Virus record (IMG/VR): IMGVR_UViG_3300021197_001521
Span: 1 to 64,000 of that record
Origin: a virus
Length of the DNA stretch: 64,000 bases
Strand: one strand, 5' to 3'
The notes under the pieces were generated by a model. That model was not told where the DNA came from. It searched no databases and saw only the letters and a program-made list of their open reading frames with translations. The first letter of the stretch is position 1; each line of letters opens with the position of its first letter. The translations under genes and the position numbers were made by a program. Of this stretch, positions 6,111-60,970 are shown piece after piece.

Positions 6111-6116
6111 CCATTT

Positions 6117-7286: not shown

Positions 7287-7304
7287 CCCGCCATGAGGTT
7301 TTGT

Positions 7305-8339: not shown

Positions 8340-8340
8340 T

Positions 8341-27500: not shown

Positions 27501-30500
27501 ATACAATACAGTTCCAGCGAGACTGCCTAGATTCTTACATGAATCTCATGCGATTAGAGGAAATATCTTTGCTAGTGGTGTTGGTGACATTAAAATAGAT
27601 CTTTCTGATTTAGGTCAAGAAGATTTTTATATTTATCATCCTTGCGACCCAGATACGTTTGATAGATGTGGACTGCCTCTTAAACATATGGGAGACATAA
27701 GAGCAGGTTGGGAATCTAAGTGTGATCCAAAAATAGAATACGAAACAAATTGGGGATTCCATTTTGACACACCTAATCCAGCGCAATCTTGCGAGAGATA
27801 CCCGCAAATACCTAAACCTCTTCTGGTTGTTCCTAATAATGAAATAACACCTGTTATAGCAGCGGCAGAATATAAACCGCAACCTCCAATAATCATAGAG
27901 GCAGACAGTGGTACTGAAGAAAGGTGTACTACGATACGGACTGGAACTAGAACGGAAACTATAACCCAAGGAACTACGACCTATAGCTTTGGAACAGAGA
28001 CGGTTGGCGAACCAGTATTTAATATTCAAGATACAGCCTCTGGTATTAGCGGTATATACAACTCATTCAATCATGTTAAGTCTGAGTACAAAGAAGGATT
28101 CTTCTTCAATCCAGATAAAGAAAATACTAGAGATGGAATCATTCAGGCGAAGGGTACATCTTTCTATGGAGAACCTGCCTCTTCAAGAAGAAAGGTTAGT
28201 GACTTTAGTATTTATGTTGCAGAAGAAATATTTACAGATAACGATAGCAACAAGTTGTACATGATCGCCTCCATGCTTCCAGAAAATGGTTGGAGCATGG
28301 GAGACTTGTTTGGAGATGAGTTTGATCCAAGGAATAATGACCAAAATATAGCATTCTACAACAACTTGGTTATGGAAAATTGCACATCTAGGGCAAACAT
28401 TTATCAACTAGGCGACTGGACTGGTAGATCATCCCTAGAAAATGCTTTCTCAGATTCTGTTGTTGAAAAAGTATTGAAGAAAAATGGTCATTTTGTTGTA
28501 AATAATGCTACAAATATTCCTAGTGTTTGTAATGTGCTTTGGATAGCAGATCCGCTAAATGCTCCTACTGACGACAACATGAAAGCAATCAAAGATTGGT
28601 TGGCAGAAGGAGATAAAAAGATTGTCGTAACCTACGGCAAAACACAGCAATCCGCAGACAATGTTGCCATACTGTGTGATAAACTTGGTATCGGAACTAA
28701 ACCTTTCTTTGTTGAGGGGGATGACAATAAGTATTATGTTCAAGATACAGATATAATCAGAGAGTCTAACTTGACTTCATGTTGCCCAGTGGAAGGAGAT
28801 GATACCAGTAAATTACAGTTATTAGACGATTCTAACATTGCAATATCAGGTTGCGAAACATACACTTGGGCTAATTCTTACGGAGTTAACACGAAGGTTG
28901 ATAAACTTTCTGCAATACCTAACGGTGCAGATCCAATAAACCTTGAGGTTGAATTTGACCCAGAGGGCGATGGGTTTACCGACTACGCATATATTCCTAT
29001 TAAACTTGGTCCAAGCGGAACCTCTGTAGTCAAGTTTAGAGATCCTATATACGAAAATTTCACAGAAAATCCAGATTTATTCTGGAAAATAGTAACAAAA
29101 GAAAGTAGCATAGAGTTCCCCGTAGTACAAAACTCAGGTTACAGATTATTTGCGGAATGGGTATCTGAAACAGATGAAGAAAAGTACGACATACTTGCTT
29201 GTGTTGATGACTTGACTGTTAAGTTCTCTCCAGAACCCGGAAATGAAAGCACAAACCCCGGAGATTACGCAGACAAGTATCTGGACAAAACTCCAAAATA
29301 CAGCAAGAAAACTGCAACTTGGGACTTTAGAGTTAAAGAAGGTTTTGATTCTGTTAAGATCAAGTTTGACACAAAAGAGTGGCATGTTCCTAGAATATCT
29401 AGCGAGGGTCAACCAACTCCATTTACACCTAGAGTGTTGGCAATATCTGGATACCTTATTCCTATCCTCGCTGAGTATAACGAGACAACAACCACTAAGG
29501 ATTATCCAATATTTGAAACTATATGTAGTGGTATAGATTGGTACTCGCCAGCAAGGACGATAGAGCAACCAGATATATTCAGACCAATTTCTACTAATCA
29601 TAGAAAGTATTGTCCTCCAAATGTAGAACTTTGCTCTGGTTTGAATCCTAATCTGGACGTAGAAGATGGTCCTGTGATCGTTGCAGACGAACTAGAACAC
29701 TTCACAAACTTTGATCAAGGTCTAAACAGGTCTAGAATTATTCTTGTTACAGACTCTACAATTATTCAGGGTCAGTCTCCACACTTTAGATCTGATCCAA
29801 ACTCAGAAAATGGTTTGTTTATTAGAAGTCTATATCCTTCAAGTCCAGAAAAAGAACTTGGATATGAGGGCGAGCTAGAGATATCACCTAAAGGAAGAAG
29901 ATTTGAGTTCAAGCAAAAACTTCGCGCGCCAGAAAAAGGAAGTCCCGCGAAATACTTTGCTGCCAGCGGAATGCAAAACTTGGTAGACAGATTCGGTTAC
30001 AACGGAAAAGCGGGACAACTTGAAAATTACACAGACCAAGAAGATACTTTCGTCTTAGGTGATGTTCTTAGATTAAAGAGTCCTATAAAACCAATAGAGA
30101 TAGAGCAGGCAATAGAATTCTTTGGAGAAGAAGTCATACCTGATTACGGCGTATTCCCAAGATTTAGTGGTATGTACGGAGAAGCGACCGATACATATGA
30201 TCCTAAGTACATAGACGCCGGAATTAAGGGTGGTATTTCTCGCTATCAAGAAGAAAGAGGTCATGATTACTTAGAGTTTGTTGCTATGAACTCTGGTTAT
30301 CCGGGAGATTTGTTTGGTTGGTCTATAGACATATACAAAAACAAACTGGTTGTTGGAGCTCCATTCAATGGATTCAACAGTGGTGATTTGGTTAGTTGGT
30401 CCGGTGTTACTGAGGCATACAATGCTTCCAATGTTGCTTCTGGTTTGAAACTTGGAAAGAATGGTGGTGGGGGTTCAGCATTCTACTATGAAAGAACGGG

Positions 30501-31713
30501 TCGCGGAACAAATGCTGTTTCTGAGTTCCTTCCTTGGGAGTTTAAGCAAAAACTTAAACCTAATGATAGTGTAGGCGTTGGTTCAGATTCTAGCGAGAGC
30601 GGAAGTTTCCCAGACAGATTTGGATACTCTGTTGCTATTAATTCTGATTTTATAGCAGTGGGTTCTCCTTGCCATGATTACGAAATGTTACATCATCATA
30701 TCTACAGCGGAACCTCTTCGTTTATAAGAAAAGAGTTTACATCTCAGTTTGCAATACCTGATCACAAGATGTACGATTTAGGAGTTTCTGGTATTCGTGT
30801 TGATAGATTTAATAATCTTAGTGGTAACATGATTATGAACAATGGTGCTGTTTACACCTTTAGGCACAAGACGCAGAACTTTGAAGATAAACCTAAAACG
30901 TGGGAGTTCGTAGAAAAGAAAAATGCTCAAGGATACCTAGACAGAACATCTGCCGTTGGAGCAACAAGCGGAACAGACGGAGACTTCTTTGGTTATTCTA
31001 TTGCGCTTGATAAACCCCTAAGAACTGACGGCGACTATATTCTAACGGTAGGTTCTCCAGAGCATTTATTCTCAACTAGCGGTAATCATATTACAGCAGC
31101 AATTTCCGGCGCGGGTTCTGCATATACGTTTGACGCAATGTTAAGAGAACAACCTGCTTCTATACCGAATCCGGGTAGTTACATAAAAGCGACAACTTTT
31201 GGTTTAGATGGAGAAACAGACTCTAGATCAGAACTATCCCAAACAGTATTCCAAAATGTTGTGGGTGAACCGGTATCTTACACATTAAGCGGAATAGTTT
31301 ACGCCAACCTAAACGGAGATTTGTTCTTGGAGGTTTCTGGGGTTGATCCTGCTTCTCAAGGTTTTGTTTCCCATAGACCGTTTGTGGAGTCTATAATAGG
31401 TGAAGCTTTAGGCGGAACAGAAATTGACGAAGAAATGGGACTAAGAACTATAGGTAAAGTTCCTGAGTCCACGGGTGTCTTACCCGTCAGTATTTTAGGG
31501 GCAGATTCAGCAATTGTGTATAATAATATGGACTTGTACCTATTAAGCACAGAAAGCGAGCAGGCAGGCAGCGGCACAAGTCCACTTAATTTGTTTGTGT
31601 CAGGTTTAGATATTTATTCTTCTGGAAATCTTGGGTTGACTACTAGCGGTATAGGTCTTTTGCAAATAGGTTCTGGAACAAACCCATTTAATCTTAGAAT
31701 TAGAGGTAAGTAA
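15550..31713 (+). CDS. Giant multi-domain tail protein, probable tail adhesin (5387 aa)
   Basis: One uninterrupted frame of 16.2 kb, a quarter of the window, encoding roughly 590 kDa. It starts in a TAATG overlap with the tape measure gene. Visible segments: residues about 395-835, eight clear RCC1-like units ending in W-G (for example FAALKTDGTIVTWGN) plus one degenerate unit; about 1165-1360, a LamG-like jelly roll; about 2310-2485, a second LamG-like region; about 2775-3035 and 5250-5387, repeated SG-x-L-x-L strands; several FG-GAP-like units near 3200-3345, 3640, 3775, 4920, 5025 and 5145; two Rossmann-like segments near 3838-3978 and 4266-4400. No signal peptide and no catalytic site was identified. 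Gene order and the adhesive domains suggest a tail-tip or fibre protein; function is inference. Confidence 0.75.
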   Translation: MLQLSCSCDGLSQEAIAEGVISAQTSMRMAADTKVKAMGRLQSPILKPDYEKCLPVTLIETAVGEGPIYDIEIDPYQFGDCDYDSSYYNTNDYCDLEDGKIKEEILEYIVNDGQAVIDYDIGVQPTFFSGAIGEEVIWISPALVDKNYEKEYDVSYDYSTLPSDPLDIFDPDYICCDSINLTDPNRKKIIDIIDPDYTAPCDCCPRPRPGQRAEAIRPKHNVLDSQLSKDGKHYAFAYKNLFKNEIIIEVHDRTEESWAYLAKIKTELTNFGAFTLNADATLIAVSDHEESSVHEKSGRIKIYQFDALDKQYVRVDQLGFDTGIAKSFTPSGFDFNYQDDIRTPRNFIIQRQDDEVFVLGEFPQMFSDSFAEVSEDLIDVDRIFNTTNEDDFFALLGANTFDNYVAILKDKTIRTWGNIFLPDGVAKSVNGKAEDIVSSKKAFALLTTDSKVECWGDVEKFSWRKIDEVDGEHYDVSDSLTDVKKIFSNSDCFAALKNNGQVVSFSKRFGDHLLGGSPYVWSEFEVTPRSEVDLSNIETIVGGKQCFAAITKNIPEIKRNTLACWGNEKFGGDVDRNLFGSKIGIETIESNRSGFAAIGKDKKITTWGSTDVGTEDQQSSLAQDDNFKTHIHPSISDAGNPAYQQSQYVKSKLGSEAFSKIVPSLFSFAVLTEGGLVVTWGNPYAGGLSFLDDSSGLNSLIALPDNVTLLNSESDLTGVSEIYATAAAFAALKTDGTIVTWGNTQFGGDSSGISLNNIAKVASTVGAFATINKTGGIVAWGDKEFGGQTSFNNTDPAIDLSSGFTEIYATKSGFLAFKADGTVVGWGDDANFKGIKSLEFTGLFGRSKNFGLGYSLSFNDAGDKLICGNKKRTYLSTSFEVGSIKAYQRNPTTLRWRRFGQEIKTATAFDMAMGRMVKSDSTGNRLAAYEIVSSDNEFPSKLGIYEYDAGSWKRSDRVNLFPHSKTYSPFINKSKNIRIPHGIDISSDGKTVAFGSVSPEGDDLNGKVLVAKFDENTGRYSNSGVINPDPVITTASDGINKNWNPSRLFGENVSLSHDGNKILVSSRESASIYEYSLILDYNLTNDWTKVSQVYSYDDPKRKTFYQASDSNSDFGRLISAHMSSGADFVSSTHFDDSVSTKQYGHYVYKIDHSKPIDRFDYDHKNNYLSFMNATIQKSGIYSQILYSKDSSIADTSSNLGSKQSIAIGKKSNTAASTYAFWSDVKLRTTGAEILKVGNHKISLKVTSKSFDRKRQIEVIFNGSSVNKTFKGSLIPSNEYDDLFHFAITVDTTNKVIQFYEAGRLLETFKDDNITLSTNKTDSYIGGFSNNNTPSQSILDDIRVFSKILSRDEIFKLANHRKIAFRLDQYYYDVVSANCNSFRLEFTSGTYLDVPIKNLCQETIERNDCGKVISSGCVVDAKVKFCYYTGLPHPTYVKSFGRSRDEDTAYLKNPYLNEVITSLSGTCETVNELDEAFNVYGSDFFIWGSSPVPPPFDNQVVEGSGSLLGFVNKVHSPGKELEGIALIQSRSNLDFGLAVSGFENATLTTSSKWLEKFNGDFGNWTANQVIYPKEDVSSSGFINKSKESTNLYQSIDEGVFVGNSYYSKDYSIVADDSTSYITASSINTEFEANYKFKFTDLLVRPAENRLRIKMSGPLKNYESDLPPKFHFTDVKMEDPSGGLICEYEDFTFIGDSNQYIDDANFVTYSLKPSLNYAERYQWQDNYPNLYVTSGHTLSFNVTSEDMGHPYSKSAYTFGFKGDNDFVASDQEYKDFFSVSGINPSLRITAIELYASGRKIPYKENFMNTYILGQTQGGRVERVIKPTAFLLSDFDTGIRPAASSIWEGSHGRNNSSKLGALELLSNIRGSGYDKYITTHNDASQSGKLILQFGHQRDDTFYEVKPDSFLQNSFSNIFSRWFDEDQGVFNAKDKLTPHQDGFFKVEDIKLRVLAKKNVGAANYVLDVVGYSDDCIIHVTPAMGGFLQNTPSQDVVDYSDDSITTFSPQGTVPTDSGFGNVDDLGLSTEPVSNKDQYFEDNTSNNLGGDHDLISTYPVVSATEFKWYEIPLRIYKDDVELGRIIDYTQSTYLEKLFLDIYPLPSGASIGAIELAVRYRPQSALEMIVEGGDYRKIQDGRTEGSFYPVARQVSTDPIFNAGSGFAPLSRIENIPHAYASPDTIKTNYARRWRGVNGVAGHAFQIDQFSRAFDERRINTPFLMSHVDFSNLEDDAPTSVKFSSEKTFENVHMTLTENGTPTSPDIHQNVGMRFSSGTMFGSLLPSYSGNYKTADWTSLINGSNNFTDHELYGQIFDGYDRVVRFSTKTTLELGENINPSSGVSAFIRFIPDANASGIGYNFYNSSTLFSTQFASIPSRSGLVVGFKDGYLFASGHTTTSNFLIQDTIKYSGYQYPLSVLFTYDENGDNRARLYTDNELYQGDFQNIRASSEPIQMENLSDKFTFGYAGSSVSGMPMLISEVGVTNSGNILNSGAQLQDNQVSITEFFDNIRVKFFNPNESISNDNFKLWSYVDENTYTDWYLGAFKSCEYNFEFDSLNSIKGKKAGRDLINFKFDSDGSAYSTYATKDMPNTVNSGVAYHSQLENDFLRFYLSDASSNFYATHRRVAKSLPRNYDFAEKALVVESIIEHSSSGSMVWDDGNVGPKLIVSLYTKNKEPYYVTDDPNWGLINRHYHYLQPSSCFTRLDSTFTYGDYCDDTEKWALFPEEKKLSELTEKFYSKDIDDMFVQYDIAYPSGSSLRSNLNVHTVHVRAEDAWVKPTADSGSLNLTTSGNIVESVKMDMYMFGVSGSLNDTLGLCMSGVKPVKASGDFILCVSGAKATNDTLGLYTLDYGTINNSDGNVVSSLPPYLDFVVGDHDPGQFGFFLVTSGAPEPVITTLNNLSGTNGSGMGMFIEGLGFTSGILPLSVANDQQASSDSGVLKMSVFADSGVPRIQSQMPIFLLQEQYFAESDSDFGDTSGNFNLSLVGAAINNNTISETANLYLEGQESLQVSGLMNLFLDGPPDPTIQSGILELLIRNNNLRSESNVPGNPLVFWNGENYGTSIDIQDNIYATFSADDEIRGVDLFGFGFCDSDSPDKAFDEALVVDDVVYRDRVCNDGGIFRATATYTNEAAGYQDNYYGIRKLTGLKKGRPYLVNLKITTGNTDPIPVPNDWEEWEYGICDPAFDSMCCTRDCDQALAFSGVKLIGDYPYLSGNSSLIDVSGRQAGDNYGKSMRVKKDLLAVGAPNHNVNDASGYYLEDAGAIFLYRRDQEVAGKKADWQLEEKLLLPLGARRDFVSRKTGTLVNFGNFSIAGQQWEIGQEGRELGFSLDVCQSGEREVVVAGGPGGKWSRTFPTVVTSGVPVFMMLFTDKFTYNRTKLKEIVRTARKYDILYKYFSAPWGTSPDEWHPELDVNLLICQMFTSDNIDDLPSVPNTREPWFNHMYLNDVLDPDINKNEAINTGVSGVISKFKEIFPHRNALHSGVPPIVGIFGDNTFSTNFTNSFKPILDQFVDFYNDYSLASGVYDAVNSNPSKGYVNQIFDDAFNWDQASVEILNKTLDSGNLILTDNLKFITSGVGQEYARDDSVEFQSPPESGGRVYIFEKEYGDWNLIQDIISPEEEALNGSYDTDDFIPGYGDQKPMDRFGHAVSISDNSEIISVGSPYINEACQIYERDDSENTRMYTVVLDWLTETHDPFTKDLQSHIDRYNELLAASGATVARLEVYKDLSKLDKFLLRKNKDIRLYRKVFNYDYTDIKYTGSWGVIPQEFAGTSRLGFSTAIDEEGDVVAFGAPTDSFNEFDDYNVWYGGVRSRTNYPKNNTWASYTNAGAIRVFESRKYFKHNKAVEFFKFGNLDRSVHQDIDNLSLYYNNLGTFFDVDGVSFERTQFEDIEIPTDAGLAFIITPELDAASDEIVDNIKSWLALGDRTLVLVGNDPLYEENGLYEKSNDIINKILKKLGCRMRIVPARNREESLAAGVTNSGVSSLRYNTVPARLPRFLHESHAIRGNIFASGVGDIKIDLSDLGQEDFYIYHPCDPDTFDRCGLPLKHMGDIRAGWESKCDPKIEYETNWGFHFDTPNPAQSCERYPQIPKPLLVVPNNEITPVIAAAEYKPQPPIIIEADSGTEERCTTIRTGTRTETITQGTTTYSFGTETVGEPVFNIQDTASGISGIYNSFNHVKSEYKEGFFFNPDKENTRDGIIQAKGTSFYGEPASSRRKVSDFSIYVAEEIFTDNDSNKLYMIASMLPENGWSMGDLFGDEFDPRNNDQNIAFYNNLVMENCTSRANIYQLGDWTGRSSLENAFSDSVVEKVLKKNGHFVVNNATNIPSVCNVLWIADPLNAPTDDNMKAIKDWLAEGDKKIVVTYGKTQQSADNVAILCDKLGIGTKPFFVEGDDNKYYVQDTDIIRESNLTSCCPVEGDDTSKLQLLDDSNIAISGCETYTWANSYGVNTKVDKLSAIPNGADPINLEVEFDPEGDGFTDYAYIPIKLGPSGTSVVKFRDPIYENFTENPDLFWKIVTKESSIEFPVVQNSGYRLFAEWVSETDEEKYDILACVDDLTVKFSPEPGNESTNPGDYADKYLDKTPKYSKKTATWDFRVKEGFDSVKIKFDTKEWHVPRISSEGQPTPFTPRVLAISGYLIPILAEYNETTTTKDYPIFETICSGIDWYSPARTIEQPDIFRPISTNHRKYCPPNVELCSGLNPNLDVEDGPVIVADELEHFTNFDQGLNRSRIILVTDSTIIQGQSPHFRSDPNSENGLFIRSLYPSSPEKELGYEGELEISPKGRRFEFKQKLRAPEKGSPAKYFAASGMQNLVDRFGYNGKAGQLENYTDQEDTFVLGDVLRLKSPIKPIEIEQAIEFFGEEVIPDYGVFPRFSGMYGEATDTYDPKYIDAGIKGGISRYQEERGHDYLEFVAMNSGYPGDLFGWSIDIYKNKLVVGAPFNGFNSGDLVSWSGVTEAYNASNVASGLKLGKNGGGGSAFYYERTGRGTNAVSEFLPWEFKQKLKPNDSVGVGSDSSESGSFPDRFGYSVAINSDFIAVGSPCHDYEMLHHHIYSGTSSFIRKEFTSQFAIPDHKMYDLGVSGIRVDRFNNLSGNMIMNNGAVYTFRHKTQNFEDKPKTWEFVEKKNAQGYLDRTSAVGATSGTDGDFFGYSIALDKPLRTDGDYILTVGSPEHLFSTSGNHITAAISGAGSAYTFDAMLREQPASIPNPGSYIKATTFGLDGETDSRSELSQTVFQNVVGEPVSYTLSGIVYANLNGDLFLEVSGVDPASQGFVSHRPFVESIIGEALGGTEIDEEMGLRTIGKVPESTGVLPVSILGADSAIVYNNMDLYLLSTESEQAGSGTSPLNLFVSGLDIYSSGNLGLTTSGIGLLQIGSGTNPFNLRIRGK
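16750..18050 (+). repeat. RCC1-like beta-propeller repeats inside the giant protein
   Basis: Eight units of about 40-110 residues, each built as A-F/V-A-x-L-x-x-D/N-G-x-(V/I)-x-x-W-G. The W-G pair is encoded near 16795, 16912, 17240, 17376, 17585, 17770, 17887 and 18022. Another unit near 17040-17090 lacks the Trp. In known proteins 5-8 such units close into a seven-bladed propeller that binds a partner. Confidence 0.7.
19030..19630 (+). other. LamG-like jelly-roll domain within the giant protein
   Basis: Residues about 1165-1360 show the concanavalin-like layout: YLSFMNATI, an FW strand with KLRTTG, F-x-I-T-V-D-T-T-N-K, YEAGRLLETFKDD, and a closing SILDDIRVFSKILSRDEI, which is the usual last strand and loop of LamG_3-type domains. 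Such domains commonly bind glycans. Confidence 0.55.
23870..24650 (+). repeat. SG-x-L-x-L-x-x-SG strand repeats within the giant protein
   Basis: A run of short strand-turn units such as SGSLNLTTSG, MYMFGVSG, LGLCMSG, FILCVSG, LYLEGQ and MNLFLDG, spaced about 15-40 residues apart. The same pattern returns at the very C-terminus (31290-31713: LFLEVSG, LNLFVSG, LGLTTSG, FNLRIRG). It looks like a stacked beta structure, suited to a fibre shaft. Confidence 0.55.
25155..26530 (+). repeat. FG-GAP-like (integrin-type) repeats within the giant protein, first group
   Basis: Units of the type G-x-x-x-G-x-S-(V/M/L)-x-x-x-x-(D/E)-x-(V/I)-x-V-G-(A/S)-P: DNYGKSMRVKKDLLAVGAP, RELGFSLDVCQSG...VVVAGGP, DRFGHAVSISDN...ISVGSP. 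They are followed by strands such as IFLYRRDQ and IFEKEYGDWNLIQ, the usual context of FG-GAP propellers. Further units occur at about 26855, 30300, 30610 and 30975. Confidence 0.6.
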
Positions 31714-46477: not shown

Positions 46478-47167
46478 CTAGTTAGTGGATGCGGCGATGA
46501 TTGATTTTTGCCAGTTTATATGTTTAGAGTCGTTTGTAGACAAAGAGTTTTGTTGACCGTCTCTATATACCAACACAGTGTCTTTAAGGTTTTCAATCTT
46601 GCAACCTGCTTGCAGACATTTAGACCACAACATAAAGTCTTCTGAAATATGATCTGGAGATTCGTTGTAACCGCCTACTCCTAGTATCTTTTCTTTTTTA
46701 AACATTACTGTTGGATGATTTAGAAAATGGTCTCTATAGTAGAAGATGTTTGGCGGAATTTTTTCTGGCATTATTCTTGACACGACACCTGTAGACATTT
46801 GTGAGCATTGACCACCAAGTATATCCACATCACCTTCTTGCATTTTGCGCAATTGTTTTTCTAGTCTATCTGGTGTCATAATATCGTCCGAATCAAGTCT
46901 TGCCACCAAATCATACTTACAGACTTTTAAACCTGCATTGAGTGCTACCGACAAATTCTTTTTACCTTCTTGTCTTTCGCACTTTAGTACGGTTATCTTT
47001 TCATGGTCATTTAATTCATTCAGAAGCTCTATAAGCTCTGGTACGTCTGATTGATTGTCTATGATAACTATTTCAAAGTTTTGTTCTGTTTGATCTAGAA
47101 CGCTATCAATACATTGTCTCAAATGATTACGTGGCGTGTTATAAACTGGAATTAATACTGAGATCAT
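46478..47167 (-). CDS. Family 2 glycosyltransferase, GT-A fold (229 aa)
   Basis: Typical GT2 start (ISVLIPVYNTPRNHLRQCID, residues 2-21) followed by ILDQTEQNFEIVII-type strands, LNAGLKVCKYDLVARLD, and the metal and nucleotide-binding acidic motif LDSDD at residues 91-95. Later, HPTVMFKKEKILGVGGYNE and SEDFMLW (with ED as the usual catalytic-base region) complete the fold. The enzyme would transfer a sugar from a nucleotide donor. The start has AAGGAG 5 bases upstream and overlaps the fcl stop (ATGA). Donor and acceptor cannot be read from the sequence. Confidence 0.85.
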   Translation of the reverse strand: MISVLIPVYNTPRNHLRQCIDSVLDQTEQNFEIVIIDNQSDVPELIELLNELNDHEKITVLKCERQEGKKNLSVALNAGLKVCKYDLVARLDSDDIMTPDRLEKQLRKMQEGDVDILGGQCSQMSTGVVSRIMPEKIPPNIFYYRDHFLNHPTVMFKKEKILGVGGYNESPDHISEDFMLWSKCLQAGCKIENLKDTVLVYRDGQQNSLSTNDSKHINWQKSIIAASTN

Positions 47168-48102
47168 GATTGCTCCTTAAAGTTTTCGTCTTTTAGAAAC
47201 CATTCTATAGTTTCTTTTAGTCCTGTTTGTAAATCTGTTTCTGCTTTAAAACCTAGTCTTTCTTCTGCAAGTTTTGTATTTAGGCATCTTCTAGGTTGAC
47301 CGTCTGGTTTGGAAGTGTCGTATTTAATTGTTCCGGTGTATCCCATCTGACTGGATATTTCTTCTACCAGATCTCTAATTGATATCTCTTGACCTGTCCC
47401 AATATTGATTGGTTCTAATGGTACATTTTTTTCTATTGCACAGGCAACTGCTTTTGCGCAATCTGGTGCGTACAAAAACTCTCTAGTTGCTTTGCCAGAT
47501 CCCCATATAGTAACTTCTGATTCTCCGTTCTTCATAGCATTATAAAACTTTAGAATCAATGCTGGTATAACGTGACTACTAGTTAAATTAAAATGATCGT
47601 GAGGTCCATACATGTTTACTAAAAGTAAATTTGCGCCTCTCATGCCATACTGCTGCCCGTATAGCTCTAGCAATTTTCCTACCGCCTTTTTTGACACACC
47701 GTATCCAGCGTTCGTTTCTTCTGGATAACCATTCCATAGGTCGTTCTCATTAAACGGAACCGGAGAGTGCTTTGGATAAGAACACACCGTTCCTAGAAAA
47801 ATAAACTTTGGAACCATTTGTCTTCTCGCCGCTTCAACCATGTTAATTCCCATCATCAAGTTCTCGTACATGAACCTTCCGGGATTTTCTTTATTTGCTG
47901 CAATACCACCAACAGAACCAGCGGCATGTACAATCACGTCTGGATTGTAATACTCTACTGCTTTTATACATGCTCTATCTGATCTAAGGTCATAAACTTT
48001 TGATCCTATACCAGCAAAAGTATGATCTTTCAGATTTCGTGGCAGGTGTTTCATTAGGTTTTTTCCTAAGAAACCGCTTGCTCCAGTAACTAGAACTCTC
48101 AT
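47164..48102 (-). CDS. fcl: GDP-L-fucose synthase / GDP-colitose synthase-like epimerase-reductase (312 aa)
   Basis: An extended short-chain dehydrogenase with GASGFLG (residues 7-13). It carries the hallmark residues of GDP-4-keto-6-deoxymannose epimerase-reductases: Cys107 in GTVCSYP, Tyr134 and Lys138 in YGVSK, and His177 in SSHVIPAL, each two positions before the Escherichia coli Fcl numbers. It therefore should catalyse the 3,5-epimerisation and 4-reduction that yield GDP-L-fucose. In colitose pathways the ColC homologue makes GDP-L-colitose with C5 epimerisation only. The gene immediately follows a ColD-type dehydratase, which favours the colitose route. AAGGA ribosome site. Sequence alone does not separate the two products. 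Confidence 0.85.
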   Translation of the reverse strand: MRVLVTGASGFLGKNLMKHLPRNLKDHTFAGIGSKVYDLRSDRACIKAVEYYNPDVIVHAAGSVGGIAANKENPGRFMYENLMMGINMVEAARRQMVPKFIFLGTVCSYPKHSPVPFNENDLWNGYPEETNAGYGVSKKAVGKLLELYGQQYGMRGANLLLVNMYGPHDHFNLTSSHVIPALILKFYNAMKNGESEVTIWGSGKATREFLYAPDCAKAVACAIEKNVPLEPINIGTGQEISIRDLVEEISSQMGYTGTIKYDTSKPDGQPRRCLNTKLAEERLGFKAETDLQTGLKETIEWFLKDENFKEQS

Positions 48103-48103
48103 A

Positions 48104-49249
48104 TTATTCCTTATTTATAATGTCGCAAATTTTTTGAAGATCTTCTCTTGTTAGATCTTGATTATTGGGAACATAAAAACCAAACTTATCTACTAACTCA
48201 GAGTTTGGCATATTGTCAGATCTTCCTTTCCAAAACGGTTTGTTTGCCATAGAACCTGCTATTAGCGGTCTTGTCTCTACGCCATTGCTTATCAAATTTT
48301 GAACAACTTCGTCTCTGTTTTTTGTTACAACTGGATATGCAAAATTAGATACAAAACTTGTTATGGGGTTATCTAGACTCAACATGGTGTTTTTAATATT
48401 CTCCCAATAATACTGGAAGTTTTCTTCGCGCTTCGTAGCAAACAGGTCCAATTTATCTATTTGTGTAAGTCCTATATATGCTTGCAGGTCTGTTGCTCTA
48501 AGATTAAAACCGGGATAAAAGAAACTGTACAAGAAATCAAAATCAGATATTTGGTGTTTGTTTTTATATTCTGCCTGCTTTTGCTTAGACCAATCTCTAC
48601 CCCAACCGTGTGATCTCATAGAGTATATTAGATCACTAATCTCTTCGTCGCTAGTGCAAATAAGACCACCTTCAATAGTGGAAAGGTGATGGCCGTAAAA
48701 CAACGAAAACACAGAAACGTCACCAAATGTTCCAAGGTATTGGTCTTGATATTTAGAGCCCATAGACTCACAAACATCTTCTAGTATAATTATGTTATTG
48801 TCTTTGCATATTTCAACAATTTTTTCCATCTGAGGAACTAACCCAAGTACAGACACTAGTATTAATACAGAAGGGTTTTGCTCTCTGACTATTTTCTTAA
48901 AGTGATTTAGGTCTATAGAAAGATCGTGTAGATTGCAATCGCATAACTCTACATCCATTCCCAGCAACATGGGCGAACTTACGTCCGTTGCCCAACTTAA
49001 AGCGGGAGCAACTACTTTGTTGTTTCTAAGTCTCCCGCTCTCTTTTAGTGCTGCGAGCGCCAGAAGTATAGCAGAAGAACCAGAATTAACATAACATGTA
49101 TTATTAACGCCTATCTTGTCGCTCCACTTGTCCTCAAATTCTAACGTAACCTTATTTTTTGTTAGAATAGGGGTATCTTCTTGTGATAACCAAGCAACAA
49201 GTCTTTTAATGTCATCTTTATTGATAGTATCAGAAACAAGTTTTATCAT
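48104..49249 (-). CDS. colD: ColD-type PLP-dependent GDP-sugar 3-dehydratase (381 aa)
   Basis: DegT/DnrJ/EryC1-family fold: NSGSSAILLALAAL, VVAPALSWATDV, ILEDVCESMGSKY (with the Asp that contacts the PLP pyridine), then FSLFYGHHLSTIEGG. In aminotransferases of this family a Lys sits where the first His of GHH (residue 187) is found. That exchange is the mark of ColD, GDP-4-keto-6-deoxy-D-mannose 3-dehydratase, which removes the C3 hydroxyl. RSHGWGRDW and FNLRATDLQAYIGLTQI complete the family pattern. The start is set at ATG 49249 (GGA 7-9 bases upstream, ATGA overlap); an upstream TTG could add 4 residues. Next to fcl it points to colitose-like deoxysugar synthesis. Confidence 0.8.
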   Translation of the reverse strand: MIKLVSDTINKDDIKRLVAWLSQEDTPILTKNKVTLEFEDKWSDKIGVNNTCYVNSGSSAILLALAALKESGRLRNNKVVAPALSWATDVSSPMLLGMDVELCDCNLHDLSIDLNHFKKIVREQNPSVLILVSVLGLVPQMEKIVEICKDNNIIILEDVCESMGSKYQDQYLGTFGDVSVFSLFYGHHLSTIEGGLICTSDEEISDLIYSMRSHGWGRDWSKQKQAEYKNKHQISDFDFLYSFFYPGFNLRATDLQAYIGLTQIDKLDLFATKREENFQYYWENIKNTMLSLDNPITSFVSNFAYPVVTKNRDEVVQNLISNGVETRPLIAGSMANKPFWKGRSDNMPNSELVDKFGFYVPNNQDLTREDLQKICDIINKE

Positions 49250-49998
49250 ATCGTTGTCCAACTTTCAGGTACAATGTCTCCAGAGTATGTTCCATTCGCA
49301 AACCAGTTTTTAGGCGCAATAACCTTTTTATCAACATTATTGTTTAACCAAGCACCCCACCAACTAAATGATGAGTTTGCAATTATATTATGACTACAAA
49401 GAGACATAGAATATAGATCTATCGTGTTTGTTTGGTTTTCAGAAAAATACATATTGTTATATTTAAAGTTTTCTTTACACCATTTAATATCATCAGAAAA
49501 AACTAGTATATTTGTATCACTTTTTGTAATCAGATCAACTGCCTTGTTGTAATAATCTAAAGTTTGAGACGGATGAACGTGACTTGCTTTAAGATAATCG
49601 CCTCTCCTTACATGCAAAGACACCGTTTCGTCTTTAAGGAAAGGATAGGTGTTCATTATATGATACTTTGTTTTATCGTTAATTTCAAGTTCTTTTCTTA
49701 AAGTATCTTTATTTTTTTCAAAGTATTTTTCAGATTGCCAATATCCATTTAGGTAGCTATCATTAGGAATAGGTTGGTAGTGAAAATCGTCTTGAATTTC
49801 TTCAAAAACAAACAGGTGTTGCTCTAGGATTTTTGGTTTTAAATCAAAATCATACAGGGCAAACTTCCAACTACCTTTGTTCAGGAAGTAGGACGCTACA
49901 TAGTAGCATTCGGTGTTGTGAATCTTAGCTGCTGCCTGAGATGCTGCCCACTGAAATAATTGATTACCCATGCCTCCCATCAAGTTGCATGTTATCAT
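49246..49998 (-). CDS. Family 11 fucosyltransferase-type glycosyltransferase (250 aa)
   Basis: The N-terminus has GGMGNQLFQWAASQA (residues 8-22), the GT11 signature loop. Residues 127-134 read SLHVRRGD, the conserved basic motif that binds GDP-sugars in alpha-1,2- and alpha-1,6-fucosyltransferases. NSSFSWWGAWL near residue 209 is the third GT11 motif. The donor is a GDP-sugar of the fucose type. Because the two flanking genes make such donors (ColD and Fcl), the enzyme may transfer colitose or fucose. In Escherichia coli O55 a GT11-type enzyme occurs in a colitose-containing antigen cluster. Acceptor unknown. Confidence 0.85.
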   Translation of the reverse strand: MITCNLMGGMGNQLFQWAASQAAAKIHNTECYYVASYFLNKGSWKFALYDFDLKPKILEQHLFVFEEIQDDFHYQPIPNDSYLNGYWQSEKYFEKNKDTLRKELEINDKTKYHIMNTYPFLKDETVSLHVRRGDYLKASHVHPSQTLDYYNKAVDLITKSDTNILVFSDDIKWCKENFKYNNMYFSENQTNTIDLYSMSLCSHNIIANSSFSWWGAWLNNNVDKKVIAPKNWFANGTYSGDIVPESWTTI

Positions 49999-50876
49999 AT
50001 CGCCTCCTTAGTTTTTCTTAAAACATCAAGTCTACTTGCGCCCGAAAACGCTTCTTCAAAAGTTATAAGATTTTCTACATTTATTTCTTCGTTGTGAAAT
50101 ATGTTCATGTAGGCAGAGTATCTATGAAGCGCCCAACCAGCATAGAATCTAGCAACATTTTCGTGTCCGTTTTCATGAAAATTCATACCTGACCCTACGC
50201 CAGCAAAATGTAGGAATTTTTTACCGAAGTCATACCAAGTGTTCAGCAGTAAAAATCCATTATCATAACTTTCATTTTCATTAGAGCTTCCATAATCTTC
50301 TGTGTCTAGATAAAATATTTTTCCGTTGTTCATAAGAATATGAAAACTTACTGGATCAAAAAAATCTATAATTGGGATTCTATCTACAGGTTGACCTTGG
50401 CACATATTCTTTAGTGTGTCAAAATTAATTTCATCAGAAATTAAAGATTTATTCACCCCAATGAAGCATGTTCCTACAACGTCTGGCATAGGTCTGTGTA
50501 TAGAATAACTTCTACGTGGACCAACTAGATCGTAACCATCTTCTAGTTTATTCGTTATATCACTGAGGCATTCATCAATAAAAACAACATCGCTGTCAAT
50601 TTGAACTATGTAGTCGTAACCTTCTGAATACTCTCTTATGACTTTTGCCCAAACATAAGCAGTTCCGCTATGACCAGACTTATAGAGATGTTTTATATTT
50701 TCATCAGTTTCAATATTAATAAATTTATTGTTCTCATTACTTGGAATATCCAAGAAGTCTTCAGGTGTACCTATAATGTGAATCTTAACATCGTGAAATT
50801 TATGATAAGTTTCTATGCACTTGTTTGCTATCTTACCACAATTATATGCTATTACGAATACAAAAGTATCATCCAT
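49995..50876 (-). CDS. Putative GT-A glycosyltransferase (293 aa)
   Basis: The first strand TFVFVIAYNCG and a helix with CIETYHKFHDVKIHIIG are followed by an aspartate motif VQIDSDVVF at residues 92-99, the DxD metal and nucleotide-sugar site of GT-A enzymes. Then CFIGVNKSLI and a long C-terminal helical part with GSGMNFHENGHENVARFYAGW. Size and layout fit a family 2-like enzyme but no close family was recognised. AAGGG ribosome site, and the start overlaps the previous gene. Substrate unknown. Confidence 0.6.
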   Translation of the reverse strand: MDDTFVFVIAYNCGKIANKCIETYHKFHDVKIHIIGTPEDFLDIPSNENNKFINIETDENIKHLYKSGHSGTAYVWAKVIREYSEGYDYIVQIDSDVVFIDECLSDITNKLEDGYDLVGPRRSYSIHRPMPDVVGTCFIGVNKSLISDEINFDTLKNMCQGQPVDRIPIIDFFDPVSFHILMNNGKIFYLDTEDYGSSNENESYDNGFLLLNTWYDFGKKFLHFAGVGSGMNFHENGHENVARFYAGWALHRYSAYMNIFHNEEINVENLITFEEAFSGASRLDVLRKTKEAI

Positions 50877-51669
50877 TTATAGCCCTTTCAATAGTTTCCT
50901 TTAGCATTGGTTTTATATCATAATATTTTTTTGATCTTTCGTAATTATCTTCTATGGCTGTAATCATTTTTGAGTACGAGGACTCATCTAGCGAGTTGCA
51001 TTTATTTACAATATCTTTCGCTGAGTTTACAATAATAAATCCGTCTGTATTAAAAAAATCAGAGATGTTACTAGCGCCATAGAAAATTGGAACCGTCTTT
51101 GTTACTAAGCAGTCAATTAATTTCTCTGTAAAAAAATTATTTTGTCTTGTGTTTTCTATGCAAACCGAAAATTGAGAATCGAATAATGGTTCTTTTTTCT
51201 CTCCTATTTCTGGGTTATTGAATGGATTATTTGTTGCTCGTCCTCTGTTGCTAATGTAAAATGATTTTGGTATAGTAATTTTGTCTTGATTAAAATTTAA
51301 CTCATGCCTCATAGCGTGACCCTCTAGCATCAACTTGAATCCTGTTAAGTGAGATACGCTAAAGTTTTTAGGAGGATGTTGATAGTCTTTAACCCACGAT
51401 GTACCAAATGGAAACAAGTGTGCATTTGGAAGTTTTAGAAGTTTCTCGTCATAAGTCAATATTGCGTCGAACATATTTGCTCTAGGTAAAACGAACTGCA
51501 CTATGTTTAATAGAACGGAAGGTTCTCTGGTTAGCAATATATTGGTACAGTCTTCTTCATTTTTATAACCATTAAGATCTTTATCAATAAAAAGCTTTAT
51601 GGGTTTGTCGTGTTCAATAAGTAGATTTGGCCATTCGGGGTACATGCTTGAATTGACTGTTTGTAGCAT
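50869..51669 (-). CDS. Family 10-like fucosyltransferase (266 aa)
   Basis: The start is moved to ATG 51669, where GGAG lies 6 bases upstream; the TTG 12 bases further is weaker. The C-terminal half shows the GT10 alpha-1,3/4-fucosyltransferase pattern: FSVCIENTRQNNFFTEKLID (residues 167-186) followed by TKTVPIFYGASNISDFF and FIIVNSAKDIVNKC. The E-N-x...T-E-K-L part binds GDP-fucose and the last part positions the acceptor. An N-terminal helical region has VKDYQHPPKNFSVSHLTG. It is a second GDP-deoxysugar transferase in the same operon as the ColD/Fcl pair. Confidence 0.65.
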   Translation of the reverse strand: MLQTVNSSMYPEWPNLLIEHDKPIKLFIDKDLNGYKNEEDCTNILLTREPSVLLNIVQFVLPRANMFDAILTYDEKLLKLPNAHLFPFGTSWVKDYQHPPKNFSVSHLTGFKLMLEGHAMRHELNFNQDKITIPKSFYISNRGRATNNPFNNPEIGEKKEPLFDSQFSVCIENTRQNNFFTEKLIDCLVTKTVPIFYGASNISDFFNTDGFIIVNSAKDIVNKCNSLDESSYSKMITAIEDNYERSKKYYDIKPMLKETIERAING

Positions 51670-51670
51670 T

Positions 51671-52762
51671 TTATTCTCCAAGATAATTTCTCTTTGCTTT
51701 TAAAAATAATTTCTTTTCTATTTCAGACATGTAATTAAACGTATCTAACAGCGAGTGCATTTCCCACAGTTTGGGATTTTTGTGAATCATAACCTCATGA
51801 TGCAAGTGAAAAAGATCAACATCTATAGAGGGAAACTCCACAGGTTGAATTGCTTCAATTTTATCCCAAAAGAATTTATCTTCCGGTGAATAACCATAAA
51901 AGAATTCTGGATCATAACCACCAACTTCTATAAACAAGTCTTTACTAATAATAATAGAACCACCCGGAGCGCCAGTCTGAGGTATTTCTATACCATAAGA
52001 ATCTTGGTGGAGTTGATCGACATCTGATTTTTTTAGTTTTATAATAGCTTCTGTTAGTTCTTTTGATAAATTTAAAACCCTTCTATTTGAAAAAGTTTGC
52101 AATGCACCAACACTATACTCTTTCAGATTCAAGATAGTTTTTTCAAAGAAAGAGGTTTGAACTAAAATGTCTATGTCATGGAATAAATAATATTTAGCTT
52201 TGTTTGAATATTTGAACCCACAGTTATGAGCTAAAGATTTATTCATTAGTTTATTTTCAGACGGGATATGAATATAGTTTACTAGACCGCTTGCCTTTTC
52301 CTTGTGATTTGGTTTGTCGTTTTCTTCACACAGGGTGATGCAAATTTTTGCTCCAGAATTCTCTGCTGATTTTTTTAGATGTTCAATACACGGAATAACA
52401 AATTCATCTCTACCTCTAACTGGTAGTATCACGTTTATATCATATTCCTCTTGGTCTATCAAATCTATATAGCAGGTTTCTTTTATTTTTTCATAATCTA
52501 ACCTACCGCTAACATGTAACTGAGAAAATAACATTTTATTTGATGACCTTTGTAAATAATCTTCTTTGTTTTTTAATGATTTGATTGTTTTTGATATCGA
52601 GATTAACTTGGTATCGGAGTCAATTATATTTATTAATTCTCTATAGTATTTTTTTTCTGAATGACCTTTTGAGTTTCCTATTGCGTTTTGGCAGATTTCT
52701 TTTATTTGATTTCTGATTACAATGTCTTCTTTTTTATCACTTTCTTTAAAATATAAAAACAT
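51671..52762 (-). CDS. GT-A glycosyltransferase with C-terminal galactosyltransferase-like domain (363 aa)
   Basis: Residues 1-105 form a helical extension with no known domain. From residue 108 comes a GT-A fold: INVILPVRGRDEFVIPCIEH, LAHNCGFKYSNKAKYYLFHD with DID at 196-198, and APGGSIIISKDLFIEVGGYD followed by FFYGYSPEDKFFWD (residues 285-300), matching the Glyco_transf_7C (PF02709) pattern seen in galactosyl- and GalNAc-transferases. The ED pair in SPED is the likely catalytic base. It overlaps its neighbour's stop (TAATG). Substrate unknown. Confidence 0.7.
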   Translation of the reverse strand: MFLYFKESDKKEDIVIRNQIKEICQNAIGNSKGHSEKKYYRELINIIDSDTKLISISKTIKSLKNKEDYLQRSSNKMLFSQLHVSGRLDYEKIKETCYIDLIDQEEYDINVILPVRGRDEFVIPCIEHLKKSAENSGAKICITLCEENDKPNHKEKASGLVNYIHIPSENKLMNKSLAHNCGFKYSNKAKYYLFHDIDILVQTSFFEKTILNLKEYSVGALQTFSNRRVLNLSKELTEAIIKLKKSDVDQLHQDSYGIEIPQTGAPGGSIIISKDLFIEVGGYDPEFFYGYSPEDKFFWDKIEAIQPVEFPSIDVDLFHLHHEVMIHKNPKLWEMHSLLDTFNYMSEIEKKLFLKAKRNYLGE

Positions 52763-53514
52763 TAAAATTCCACCTCTTTAAAAGAAGGTCTGCTGCAACA
52801 TATTCTATGAACTTTTTCTTGTTCTGCCCCTTCAGTTCTGAACTCACAGGTTGGATTTAAATTGTTGTAAATATAAAGAACTTTATCGTTGTATTTGACT
52901 TTATCCCAACCAGCGATGTCCATAAGAGAAAATACCTGAGCGCAGTCGTAAGCCATTGTAAACCATCTTCCATCATCGTACTTCATTGAGCTTAGTTCTG
53001 GATCTTGGTTCTTAATTTCGTGGAATAGTTTTGCTTTAAAACTTCTAAGGTGAGATACCCACAATGGCATTTGTCTTTTCAGCTCAAAGTGGTACTTACT
53101 AGGAAACGGTTTAGCATTACCTTCTTTTCCGTCTACATATCTTGCTTGACCGTACATCATCAAGCAATTTTCTCTATTGTAAAAACTATTAATATATGAC
53201 AGAACAAATTCGTCTACAAACCAATCATCTCCATCTAGTTGAACAACGATGTCTTCTGGGTCACAATCTTCGTTGATAGCTTTTTGATGATTATAAGTGG
53301 CGTATTTTCGTTCATCTGTTTTAGTGTAAATAATTTTATCTGGATATTTTTCTATATACTCTTGGCAGATGTCATCTGAATCATCAGAAGAATCATCGTT
53401 TACTAATAACACTTTAAAATTTTTATGAGTTTGACCAAAAATGCTGTCTAAACTCTTTCGTAGATATTCTCCAGCATTTCTAAAACTTACTAATATCTTA
53501 AAATTATTTTCCAT
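52762..53514 (-). CDS. Family 2 glycosyltransferase (250 aa)
   Basis: The start is set at ATG 53514, preceded at 6 bases by GGAG. GT-A pattern with KILVSFRNAGEYLRKSLDSI, VLLVNDDSSDDS, VVQLDGDDWF (acidic DGDD at about 94-97), and a C-terminal stretch SSMKYDDGRWFTMAYDCAQ, where the conserved acidic residues lie. The last 20 residues contain two adjacent Cys. It would add a sugar to a growing chain. It overlaps the gene before it by 11 bases and ends in a TAATG overlap with the next. Confidence 0.8.
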   Translation of the reverse strand: MENNFKILVSFRNAGEYLRKSLDSIFGQTHKNFKVLLVNDDSSDDSDDICQEYIEKYPDKIIYTKTDERKYATYNHQKAINEDCDPEDIVVQLDGDDWFVDEFVLSYINSFYNRENCLMMYGQARYVDGKEGNAKPFPSKYHFELKRQMPLWVSHLRSFKAKLFHEIKNQDPELSSMKYDDGRWFTMAYDCAQVFSLMDIAGWDKVKYNDKVLYIYNNLNPTCEFRTEGAEQEKVHRICCSRPSFKEVEF

Positions 53515-54391
53515 TAGATTCTCCAAATCTTTTTATTATGTCTTGCGCCTTGTCTTGATATCCCGCATCTATCATTAATTGACAAACTCTATGTATGCAT
53601 GTATGGTTAGACTCAATCTCTTGTTTAATTTTTTCAATAGAGACTTCTTGTTGATCCTCAGAGAATAGAGCTTTTAAAACTTTTATAAAGTCTTCATTTT
53701 GATCTTCGCGAGGTTTGACGGAAACTTTTTCGCATCTCAGCATACAGTCAAAGAAAATCTGAGAGCAAACAAATTGAATATCTCCGACTAGCGTAACTTC
53801 TCTGTAATTTCTCGCGAGAGATGCTAGATTGTTTATATTGCACTCTAGATCGAATTGGGAGTGTAAGTCTACACCAAAAATCATCCTATGATACTTCTCA
53901 TTATTACTGCATATCTTTTCAAATTCTTCGCTGGTTTCAGTTGAAATAATGCAATTATCTATTTTGTAGTCTAGCATGGGTGGTGGATTTAGAAATACAT
54001 CAATTCCGGGCATAATACAAGAGAATTTTATGTCCTTGCTCTTGTTGTTTACTAGAAAACCATATCCTTCTGAAAAGAACAGTGAGCAATTTACACCCAA
54101 CTCTTTGATCTGACCCTCCAAGTAGTCTATTATTGTTTGATTGCATCTGCTGCAATTAACTACTAGGTTTATGTTTTTATTCTCTGATAGATATTTTAAC
54201 AAAACAGGGTCTAGAATTTTAGCGTTTGCTATTACTAGGTCCGGTTTAAATCCGTCTAAACAGTCGTATACACTTTCTTGATTTACATTCCATAACTTTA
54301 CTTCTACGGAATCTACCATAGACAAGCACTGGTGAACGTAGAAGTTTTGGGTTGACAAAATATCGTTGTAGTTTTGTATAAGTACTCTCAT
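53504..54391 (-). CDS. Unknown glycan-operon protein, possible GT-B-like (295 aa)
   Basis: A Rossmann-like alternation is visible: MRVLIQNYNDIL, KPDLVIANAKIL, INLVVNCSRC, KFSCIMPGIDVFLN, DNCIISTETSEEF, YREVTLVGDIQFVCSQI. Strand three has an odd Cys pair (NCSRC). No donor-site signature is present, and the final 60 residues are helical and charged. It may be an unusual GT-B half or a partner protein. It overlaps both neighbours and so belongs to the operon. Confidence 0.5.
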   Translation of the reverse strand: MRVLIQNYNDILSTQNFYVHQCLSMVDSVEVKLWNVNQESVYDCLDGFKPDLVIANAKILDPVLLKYLSENKNINLVVNCSRCNQTIIDYLEGQIKELGVNCSLFFSEGYGFLVNNKSKDIKFSCIMPGIDVFLNPPPMLDYKIDNCIISTETSEEFEKICSNNEKYHRMIFGVDLHSQFDLECNINNLASLARNYREVTLVGDIQFVCSQIFFDCMLRCEKVSVKPREDQNEDFIKVLKALFSEDQQEVSIEKIKQEIESNHTCIHRVCQLMIDAGYQDKAQDIIKRFGESNGK

Positions 54392-59207: not shown

Positions 59208-59967
59208 TTTTTAATGGATAGTTTAAAATAAAACTCATCCCCCCTGAATTAAACTCTCCATGAAAACCGAAAGACTCATAACTTATTAGCATGTTTCTTG
59301 CAAAATATCTATACGGCGTTGGGTGTTCTACAGAAAACTGTGCTGCTAACTCAGGCGGGGCAAATCTTATACCTGCTTGTGTCATTCTGTCATAGTTAAA
59401 TACGCATATGTTTAAGTCTTCATTCTTATGTTCCCACCCAAGTTTGGCAGACTCTTCTACAAATTTTCTAGTTCGCAAAGAGAATCCACCATTACCCACA
59501 ACATTTGGAATATTATCTATTCTTCCAGCAACCATGTCCGTTGCTTGGATTATATGCATGGGCCAAGGCGCGCCTATGTAGTCGTAGTCTAAATACTGGT
59601 CTGTCCACTTATTACTATCTATAATAGTAGAATCATGCTGAACATTCAAGCAAAAATCATCTGTAATGTATTTATTTGTTTGTTGAACAAAAGATTCACA
59701 GAAACCTATTCTGTTTTCATCATCGTTTTGTAGGTTGTCATTAAGGTCTACTTTCATGTCGTAGACTTCTATGTTATTCTTGTTGATGATTTTTTCAAAC
59801 AAAGACAACTGAGTTTTACTACTATCTGTAATTAAGACACTACGCTTAAAATCTACCTGATCCATAGCAATCAACATAGATCTAAGAGATTTTTCTACAT
59901 GTTCTGTACCCCAGCAAAATGTAAATACTGTTACGTCTGGTAGTTGTAACTTATTTCCAATAGTCAT
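59200..59967 (-). CDS. DUF5672-type putative glycosyltransferase (255 aa)
   Basis: Matches the DUF5672 pattern: VTVFTFCWGTEHVEKSLRSM near the start, NVQHDSTIID near 108-117 (where a catalytic or metal-binding His/Asp would lie), DYIGAPWPMH at about 129-138, NVVGNGGFSLRTRKF at 155-169, NEDLNICVF, and GIRFAPPELAAQFSVEH near 199-215. Proteins of this family are usually found with sugar-transfer genes and are thought to be GT-A-fold enzymes. AAGGG ribosome site 5 bases upstream. Exact reaction unknown. Confidence 0.75.
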   Translation of the reverse strand: MTIGNKLQLPDVTVFTFCWGTEHVEKSLRSMLIAMDQVDFKRSVLITDSSKTQLSLFEKIINKNNIEVYDMKVDLNDNLQNDDENRIGFCESFVQQTNKYITDDFCLNVQHDSTIIDSNKWTDQYLDYDYIGAPWPMHIIQATDMVAGRIDNIPNVVGNGGFSLRTRKFVEESAKLGWEHKNEDLNICVFNYDRMTQAGIRFAPPELAAQFSVEHPTPYRYFARNMLISYESFGFHGEFNSGGMSFILNYPLKNE

Positions 59968-60970
59968 AAATACCCTTCGTTGTTTCGTAATCCATTACCT
60001 TTTGTTCGCGTTTAGGTTGGGTCATCGCCCACCTGAACATCTCATCAATTGTTTCCTCTAGGTTGGTGTCGTCGCTAAAGCCTAACATTTCTTTTGCTTT
60101 TGCGTGATCGCAATGCGCATGTTTAACTTCGTGCCGACCTTCTACATGTTTTTTATCTGCTTGAAAACCATTTTTTAAAGCTACACGCTGCACTGTATCT
60201 GCCAGTTGGTTTATTGAGTATGCTTTGTCTGCTCCAATGTTAAAAATTTCTTTATCGTGACTATCAATCAGTTTTTCAAAAGGTTCCATGTAGTATTTGA
60301 TATCAGAGAACGCGCGAGTCTGCTCTCCGTCTCCGTAGATTAACATAGGTTCGCCAGCAAGTATACGTCTAATAAAAATACCTACAACGTTACGATATTT
60401 ATCCCAAATGTTTTGGTATATACCTACGACATTGTGTGGACGAACAATATTATAACGAAGACCGTGTTGATCGTGTGCAACCTTTAGGTCCATCTCTACG
60501 GTATATTTTGCAATACCATATGGATCAATTGGCACTGGTCCCATCGTTTCTGTAAATGGAGGATGATGATTACCGTAAACTGCCATAGAACTGGTAAAGA
60601 TCATTTTTACGTCATGATTGATACACGCATTGATTAGGTTAACACTTGCTAAAACATTATTTGTATAATTATAATGTCTGATAAATGGCGACAACCCTTC
60701 TGCTGCATAAGCAGCAAAATGATAACACGCTACAATGTCACGGTTAGGGTCAGCAAAAATATGCTCTAATGCCCTTGGAGTCCCTTCGCTTTTACTGAGG
60801 TGTAGCGGCCAAAACTCAAACTGCTCTAACGTGGTTTCTTTGGGAAGATAATCTTCATAACTGCCGCTAAGATCATCAATACCTATAACCTTGTAACCCT
60901 TTTTGATTAGGTGACGAGTTAGGTGCGAACCAAGCAGTCCTGCGCATCCAGTTATCACAACTTCTTTCAT
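59951..60970 (-). CDS. NAD-dependent sugar epimerase/dehydratase (339 aa)
   Basis: Extended SDR fold: GCAGLLG at residues 8-14 (NAD-binding), MIFTSSMAVYG at 123-133 with the catalytic Ser, and YGIAK at 151-155 (Tyr and Lys). Later NIVRPHNVVG and YGDGEQTRAFSDIKYYMEPF fit UDP-hexose 4-epimerases and similar enzymes (GalE/RfbB group). It supplies an activated sugar, but whether UDP-, GDP- or dTDP-linked cannot be read. The last 35 residues resemble a helix that follows the catalytic core. The start overlaps the GT4 gene before it. Confidence 0.85.
   Translation of the reverse strand: MKEVVITGCAGLLGSHLTRHLIKKGYKVIGIDDLSGSYEDYLPKETTLEQFEFWPLHLSKSEGTPRALEHIFADPNRDIVACYHFAAYAAEGLSPFIRHYNYTNNVLASVNLINACINHDVKMIFTSSMAVYGNHHPPFTETMGPVPIDPYGIAKYTVEMDLKVAHDQHGLRYNIVRPHNVVGIYQNIWDKYRNVVGIFIRRILAGEPMLIYGDGEQTRAFSDIKYYMEPFEKLIDSHDKEIFNIGADKAYSINQLADTVQRVALKNGFQADKKHVEGRHEVKHAHCDHAKAKEMLGFSDDTNLEETIDEMFRWAMTQPKREQKVMDYETTKGIYDYWK

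Follow-up and report, generated by a model that had tools for sequence, protein, structure and literature searches.

Genes at the locus

The window analyzed here is the 64,000-nt stretch at positions 1–64,000 of IMG/VR virus record IMGVR_UViG_3300021197_001521, and its segment 47164–49998 holds genes that may direct the synthesis and transfer of a colitose-type sugar. Three intact open reading frames (ORFs) on the minus strand fill this segment. They follow one another in the transcription order GT11, ColD-like and Fcl-like, and Pfam matches bear out a first-pass annotation that had placed genes of these three types in a row (Table 1). The GT11 and ColD-like frames overlap in an ATGA, the ColD-like and Fcl-like frames are separated by a single base, and the Fcl-like frame overlaps the next gene, which encodes a GT2 glycosyltransferase, in a second ATGA. 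These tight junctions are as in genes that would be read from one transcript. A longer dehydratase frame that begins with TTG extends to position 49261. The source record is viral and linear, is 84,235 bases long and encodes a tape-measure protein and a DnaB-like helicase; it is best explained as coming from a tailed phage with a glycan island.

Table 1. Features of the glycan island, with positions in the window (G002 is a sister phage; SDR, short-chain dehydrogenase/reductase; PMP, pyridoxamine phosphate)
Feature	Positions	Strand	Evidence
GT2 glycosyltransferase adjoining fcl	46478–47167	minus	PF00535, E=2e-28; no G002 counterpart
Fcl-type GDP-4-keto-6-deoxysugar epimerase/reductase (SDR)	47164–48102	minus	PF01370, E=1.5e-53
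ColD-type PMP-dependent 3-dehydratase, 381 aa from ATG (putative)	48104–49249	minus	DegT fold, PF01041, E=4.5e-60
GT11 glycosyltransferase (candidate colitosyl- or fucosyltransferase)	49246–49998	minus	PF01531, E=6.5e-29
GT2-like protein	49995–50876	minus	PF00535, 21.2 bits, just under the cut-off of 23.3; no G002 counterpart
GT10-type protein (fucosyltransferase C-terminal domain)	50869–51681	minus	PF00852, E=1e-7, 32 bits, cut-off 23.9
Two GT2-type proteins at the end of the lineage-specific island	51671–52762 and 52762–53526	minus	PF10111, 26 bits, just under the cut-off; no G002 counterpart

The dehydratase and its viral relatives

It had been claimed from the sequence that a His at residue 187 of the dehydratase takes the place of the pyridoxal phosphate (PLP) lysine of related aminotransferases. 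This is correct. His187, numbered from the ATG, is at the PLP-lysine site and aligns with His188 of E. coli ColD. Residues Ser58, Trp86, Asp158, Glu161, Ser182, Asn249, Arg251, Glu325 and Arg327 are the same in ColD, and Ser59 is Thr in ColD; the positions compared are active-site positions of the family. The nearest sequence match in the PDB is E. coli ColD (2gms, 187 bits), with E1, a CDP-sugar 3-dehydratase, at 118 bits and GDP-perosamine synthase at 111 bits. A profile of the dehydratase family gives 464 bits for ColD, 251 for E1 and 187 for GDP-perosamine synthase, although it holds a few cellular relatives and so leans somewhat to ColD. The AlphaFold model of the dehydratase has a mean confidence (pLDDT) of 91.8. 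Its best fold match is ColD with bound GDP-perosamine (3b8x) and GDP-perosamine synthase is a close second; both enzymes act on GDP-4-keto-6-deoxymannose. Matches in a viral structure library are remote, with 16–18% identity at best rank.

ColD differs from E1 in that it has no 2Fe-2S cluster; it has His instead of Lys, and its PMP is regenerated by glutamate (PMC8987622). E1 likewise has His at the PLP-lysine site, and the homologue in phage S-CAM7 is annotated as a CDP-4-keto-6-deoxy-D-glucose-3-dehydrase, so the window protein could be read as an E1-type enzyme that works with a 2Fe-2S cluster and a partner reductase toward paratose, abequose or tyvelose. However, the segment that would correspond to the cluster ligands of the four-Cys 2Fe-2S motif has no cysteine, whereas an E1-like protein of phage S-B43 (L014) has four, and the E1 scores are below those of ColD in both the PDB search and the family profile. 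An E1-type function is thus extremely improbable and was set aside. A 4-aminotransferase that makes GDP-perosamine would use the same substrate and is the next-closest fold, but the PLP lysine is His in the window enzyme and in 88/88 viral relatives, and native ColD is described in a review as having no transaminase activity (PMC8987622). This reading is also very improbable and was set aside on the PDB and profile scores, His187 and the fold ranking. The window enzyme very probably removes an oxygen, the C3 hydroxyl, from a GDP-linked sugar.

The E1-like gene of Synechococcus phage S-B43 is at positions 7803–9098 and encodes a 3-dehydratase with a cysteine-rich segment and the His-His pair. 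Phages thus seem to carry a CDP-type dehydratase as well.

A family-alignment scan of viral contigs shows relatives of the dehydratase encoded in 241 contigs, of which the 80 kept are 52–67% identical to the window protein. The best cellular relatives in the genome collection reach 36% identity at most. The His-His pair is present in all 88 viral loci examined. A tree made by quick search, with support from the SH-like approximate likelihood ratio test (SH-aLRT) only, displays two large groups: E. coli ColD is in one, together with most of the cellular members, and viruses dominate the other. The window dehydratase falls among 44 viral rows (99% SH-aLRT), the nearest of which, L095, is 67% identical. 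It is in this virus-dominated sister clade and not in the clade of E. coli ColD, and for this reason is, as judged from the tree, a ColD-type homologue and not an orthologue of E. coli ColD. Genes for gmd and fcl adjoin members of both groups.

Two observations concern other members of the tree. Viral contig L180 has gmd, fcl and a ColD-type gene consecutively (positions 4965–8087); its dehydratase groups with those of phages ACG-2014f and S-CAM7, and its site is unreported by a simple motif search. The members L015, L016, L017 and L023 are bacterial and keep the His-His pair; their substrate may differ or their partner genes may be placed elsewhere.

The genes that surround the viral dehydratases differ from those at control loci. 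With equal thresholds, gmd is present in 71/88 viral His-type loci and in 2/77 controls, an fcl-type gene in 67/88 and 3/77, and a GT11 gene in 57/88 and 2/77. The controls are 77 viral loci retrieved with Lys-type aminotransferase queries; this broader query set replaced a single Lys-type protein that had retrieved near copies only. Because eleven of the 77 themselves contain a His-type gene, the control errs on the conservative side. The viral loci are related and the counts are not independent, yet after clustering at 90% identity gmd is still found in 52/64 and fcl in 51/64. In Synechococcus phages ACG-2014f and S-CAM7 the order gmd-fcl-colD is consecutive (Gmd at 557 and 540 bits, respectively, with a cut-off of 415), and E. 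coli O111 has the same set of gmd, an fcl-type gene and colD. These neighbors, the phage cassettes and the O111 gene set tie the dehydratase to GDP-4-keto-6-deoxymannose.

The set of a ColD-type gene, fcl, gmd and GT11 is common in aquatic phages. Chance is excluded as the source of the three-gene arrangement, because the His-His pair is kept in 88/88 viral relatives and their neighbor genes are unlike those of the control loci. A colitose-type 3-deoxygenation on a GDP-linked sugar, with a GT11 enzyme alongside, is well supported by the ColD residues, the lack of E1 cysteines, the ColD fold match and the company of gmd, fcl and GT11 genes.

The reductase, gmd and the glycosyltransferases

The best NCBIfam match of the Fcl-like protein is GDP-L-fucose synthase (NF047922) with 276 bits, under the cut-off of 500. 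The protein keeps Tyr134, Lys138, Cys107 and His177, and the last two align with Cys109 and His179 of K-12 Fcl, presumably the epimerization pair. The catalytic Ser (Ser107 in K-12) is replaced by Thr105, as it also is by Thr in the reductase of sister phage L176; the claim that all Fcl/ColC catalytic residues are present therefore holds except at this position. The gene does have the adjacency to colD of a colC gene, with one base between the two. In a quick tree, however, the reductase does not fall in the ColC clade of E. coli O111, stands apart from the reductases that usually accompany viral ColD, and groups with phage Fcl from loci that lack ColD (99% SH-aLRT). Its closest relatives (66, 65 and 56% identical) are found in phages at the same place, before a gene of 150 aa and the next two conserved genes. 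No ColD was found in the loci of these three relatives or elsewhere in their records, two of which are short fragments. The window record is colinear with the 167-kb genome of sister phage G002, and among the genes at 46478–53526 only fcl has a G002 counterpart.

The window reductase is, as judged from synteny and the tree, a resident phage Fcl and not a dedicated ColC. On the simplest reading, fcl was already in place and ColD, GT11 and other transferases were gained around it; alternatively, the sister phages have lost these genes. A joint arrival of fcl and colD as a colC-colD pair was rejected on the synteny and the tree. Elsewhere ColD is partnered by reductases of several Fcl/ColC clades, which makes recruitment of a resident Fcl plausible, and it is proposed that the reductase acts as a colitose synthase here.

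Two other products come into consideration with a reductase of this kind. The dehydratase could act as proposed and the reductase could skip the C5 epimerization, or reduce C4 to the other face, to give a different GDP-3,6-dideoxyhexose. The position outside the ColC clade and the Thr in place of Ser are consistent with this, but Cys107, His177, the Tyr and the Lys are all kept and reductases of several clades accompany ColD elsewhere; a different dideoxyhexose is considered unlikely. The island could also serve mainly for fucose, with fcl providing GDP-fucose for the GT11 and GT10 proteins and the dehydratase acting on another nucleotide sugar. A resident fcl that sister phages have in the absence of a detected ColD, one of them together with gmd, agrees with this, as do other phages with gmd, fcl and fucosyltransferase genes and no ColD among annotated neighbors. 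The dehydratase lineage is itself accompanied by gmd and fcl at the frequencies given above, however, and its best fold matches act on GDP-4-keto-6-deoxymannose, so that a fucose island with a dehydratase for another sugar is quite improbable.

The first-pass annotation saw no GDP-mannose 4,6-dehydratase in view, and a search of the whole 84,235-base record extends this, as no gmd was found there. G002 encodes gmd at 119.5–120.5 kb. The record matches G002 at 146.7–166.8 kb and 1–70 kb only, and the gmd is in the uncovered half. In three records of large related phages that encode close ColD relatives, gmd is approximately 70 kb from ColD. The simplest reading is that a phage gmd is in the uncovered part of this genome. 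Supply of the Gmd step by the host, which had been suggested alongside a gene encoded elsewhere, is possible but need not be invoked: an incomplete record is simpler, since the gmd of the colinear G002 lies in the half missing from the record.

The GT11 protein matches Glyco_transf_11 with 101.5 bits (cut-off 23.9), and a PDB sequence search with it gave nothing useful. WbgN, the colitosyltransferase of E. coli O55, is also placed in GT11. Besides the GT11 protein, the GT10-type protein is a candidate for using GDP-deoxysugars. For the GT2-type pair at 51671–53526, GT2-type NCBIfam models match weakly and every one is below cut-off. A GalE-like SDR at 59951–60970 on the minus strand scores 136 bits to galE, also below cut-off; it is 73% identical in G002 and belongs to the conserved and not to the variable glycan genes.

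Other features of the genome are also shared with G002. The structural region has a single ORF of 5387 aa on the plus strand (15550–31713) with a G002 counterpart that is 37% identical; inspected by eye, it shows many WG-rich repeats that resemble RCC1 or beta-propeller proteins. A protein of DNA polymerase III alpha type, named by eye, is apparently split over several genes on the minus strand from window position 63035 to record position 66921. A nuclease-like ORF (64587–65264, also named by eye) is between the split parts, and G002 has the same arrangement. Beyond the window, a pair of DUF1501 proteins (298 and 372 bits) is encoded side by side at L010:7071–9574 (record positions 71071–73574); each has a twin-arginine-like N terminus (RRHFLQ in one, RRAFLQ in the other), and both have counterparts in G002.

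Proposed pathway and comparison with known systems

Sequence and fold similarity, active-site residues, gene neighbors and synteny were observed directly, and from these we infer the substrate, product, transfer and acceptor given here, and a possible decoration of the virion or host envelope. Gmd, probably from a phage gene in the uncovered part of the genome, would make GDP-4-keto-6-deoxymannose. The ColD-type PMP-dependent dehydratase would then take off its C3 hydroxyl, with His187 as base and acid and with glutamate regenerating PMP. The adjacent resident Fcl-type enzyme would carry out C5 epimerization and C4 reduction to give GDP-L-colitose, and the GT11 enzyme encoded just upstream would move the sugar to an acceptor, either glycan or protein, that the neighboring transferases have built. 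If the reductase acts before ColD, some GDP-fucose may form.

The probability of this pathway, with Gmd probably phage-encoded, is estimated at roughly 65%. Several points weigh against it. The dehydratase shares only 31% identity with E. coli ColD, and the two fall in different large clades. The reductase lies outside the ColC clade and also occurs in phages with no detected ColD, the record has no gmd, and some cellular members near the viral clade (L015, L016, L017 and L023) lack both gmd and a convincing fcl in their vicinity. The best-supported product is GDP-colitose, perhaps accompanied by GDP-fucose. Colitose synthesis and transfer, as first suggested, agree with the ColD-type residues, the fold and the company of gmd, fcl and GT11; colitose may not be the sole product, because the reductase is a resident Fcl outside the ColC clade, and some fucose may form as well. 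The virion may be decorated.

The chemistry is known from bacteria, and gmd, fcl and fucosyltransferase genes have been described in phages before, e.g., in S-SCSM1 (PMC9602691). Among openly available papers, none on colitose genes in phages was found. The new elements are a lineage dominated by viruses and the apparent recruitment of a resident Fcl. We tentatively propose, at somewhat less than even odds, that a widespread virus-dominated ColD-type lineage lets many aquatic phages make their own GDP-3,6-dideoxysugar and attach it by phage GT11 enzymes, and that a gain of ColD and GT11 can recruit the resident Fcl. If so, a virus that gained these two genes would switch from fucose to a colitose-type decoration. 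In bacteria, colitose is a rare surface sugar known from O-antigens, and a large phage lineage of the key enzyme, often together with the complete cassette and a GT11 transferase, would mean viral synthesis of 3,6-dideoxysugars, which would coat virions or rewrite the host surface during infection. Public records name the phage dehydratase homologues hypothetical protein, aminotransferase or CDP-dehydrase, and these annotations would be corrected. The system is suited to a clean two-enzyme assay.

The E. coli O55/O111 colitose pathway (Gmd, ColD/WbdK, ColC/WbdJ) shares with the phage locus the dehydratase family, the catalytic His, other active-site positions and the adjacency of the reductase and dehydratase genes. 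The phage system differs in being phage-borne, in a dehydratase of 31% identity from a separate clade, in a reductase outside the ColC clade and in a record that lacks gmd. WbgN of E. coli O55 is an alpha-1,2-colitosyltransferase that accepts GDP-fucose as well, and is a precedent for an enzyme of alpha-1,2-fucosyltransferase type that uses GDP-colitose (PMC12723683); it is likened to the phage GT11 protein by its putative function.

Phage fucose pathways (S-SCSM1, S-SKS1, S-SRM01 and DSL-LC03) are similar in having phage gmd, fcl and fucosyltransferase genes but show no dehydratase among annotated neighbors. The cassettes of ACG-2014f and S-CAM7 are phage-borne and have a His-type dehydratase directly beside Fcl, as in the window; they differ in an adjacent gmd and in an fcl of another clade, and their dehydratases are 33% and 29% identical to that of the window. 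Also similar are the IMG/VR ColD-type loci (e.g., L095 and L003), where the dehydratase is 52–67% identical, an Fcl-type gene is mostly adjacent and GT11 is often near, but where the usual reductase is of another clade and gmd is often adjacent.

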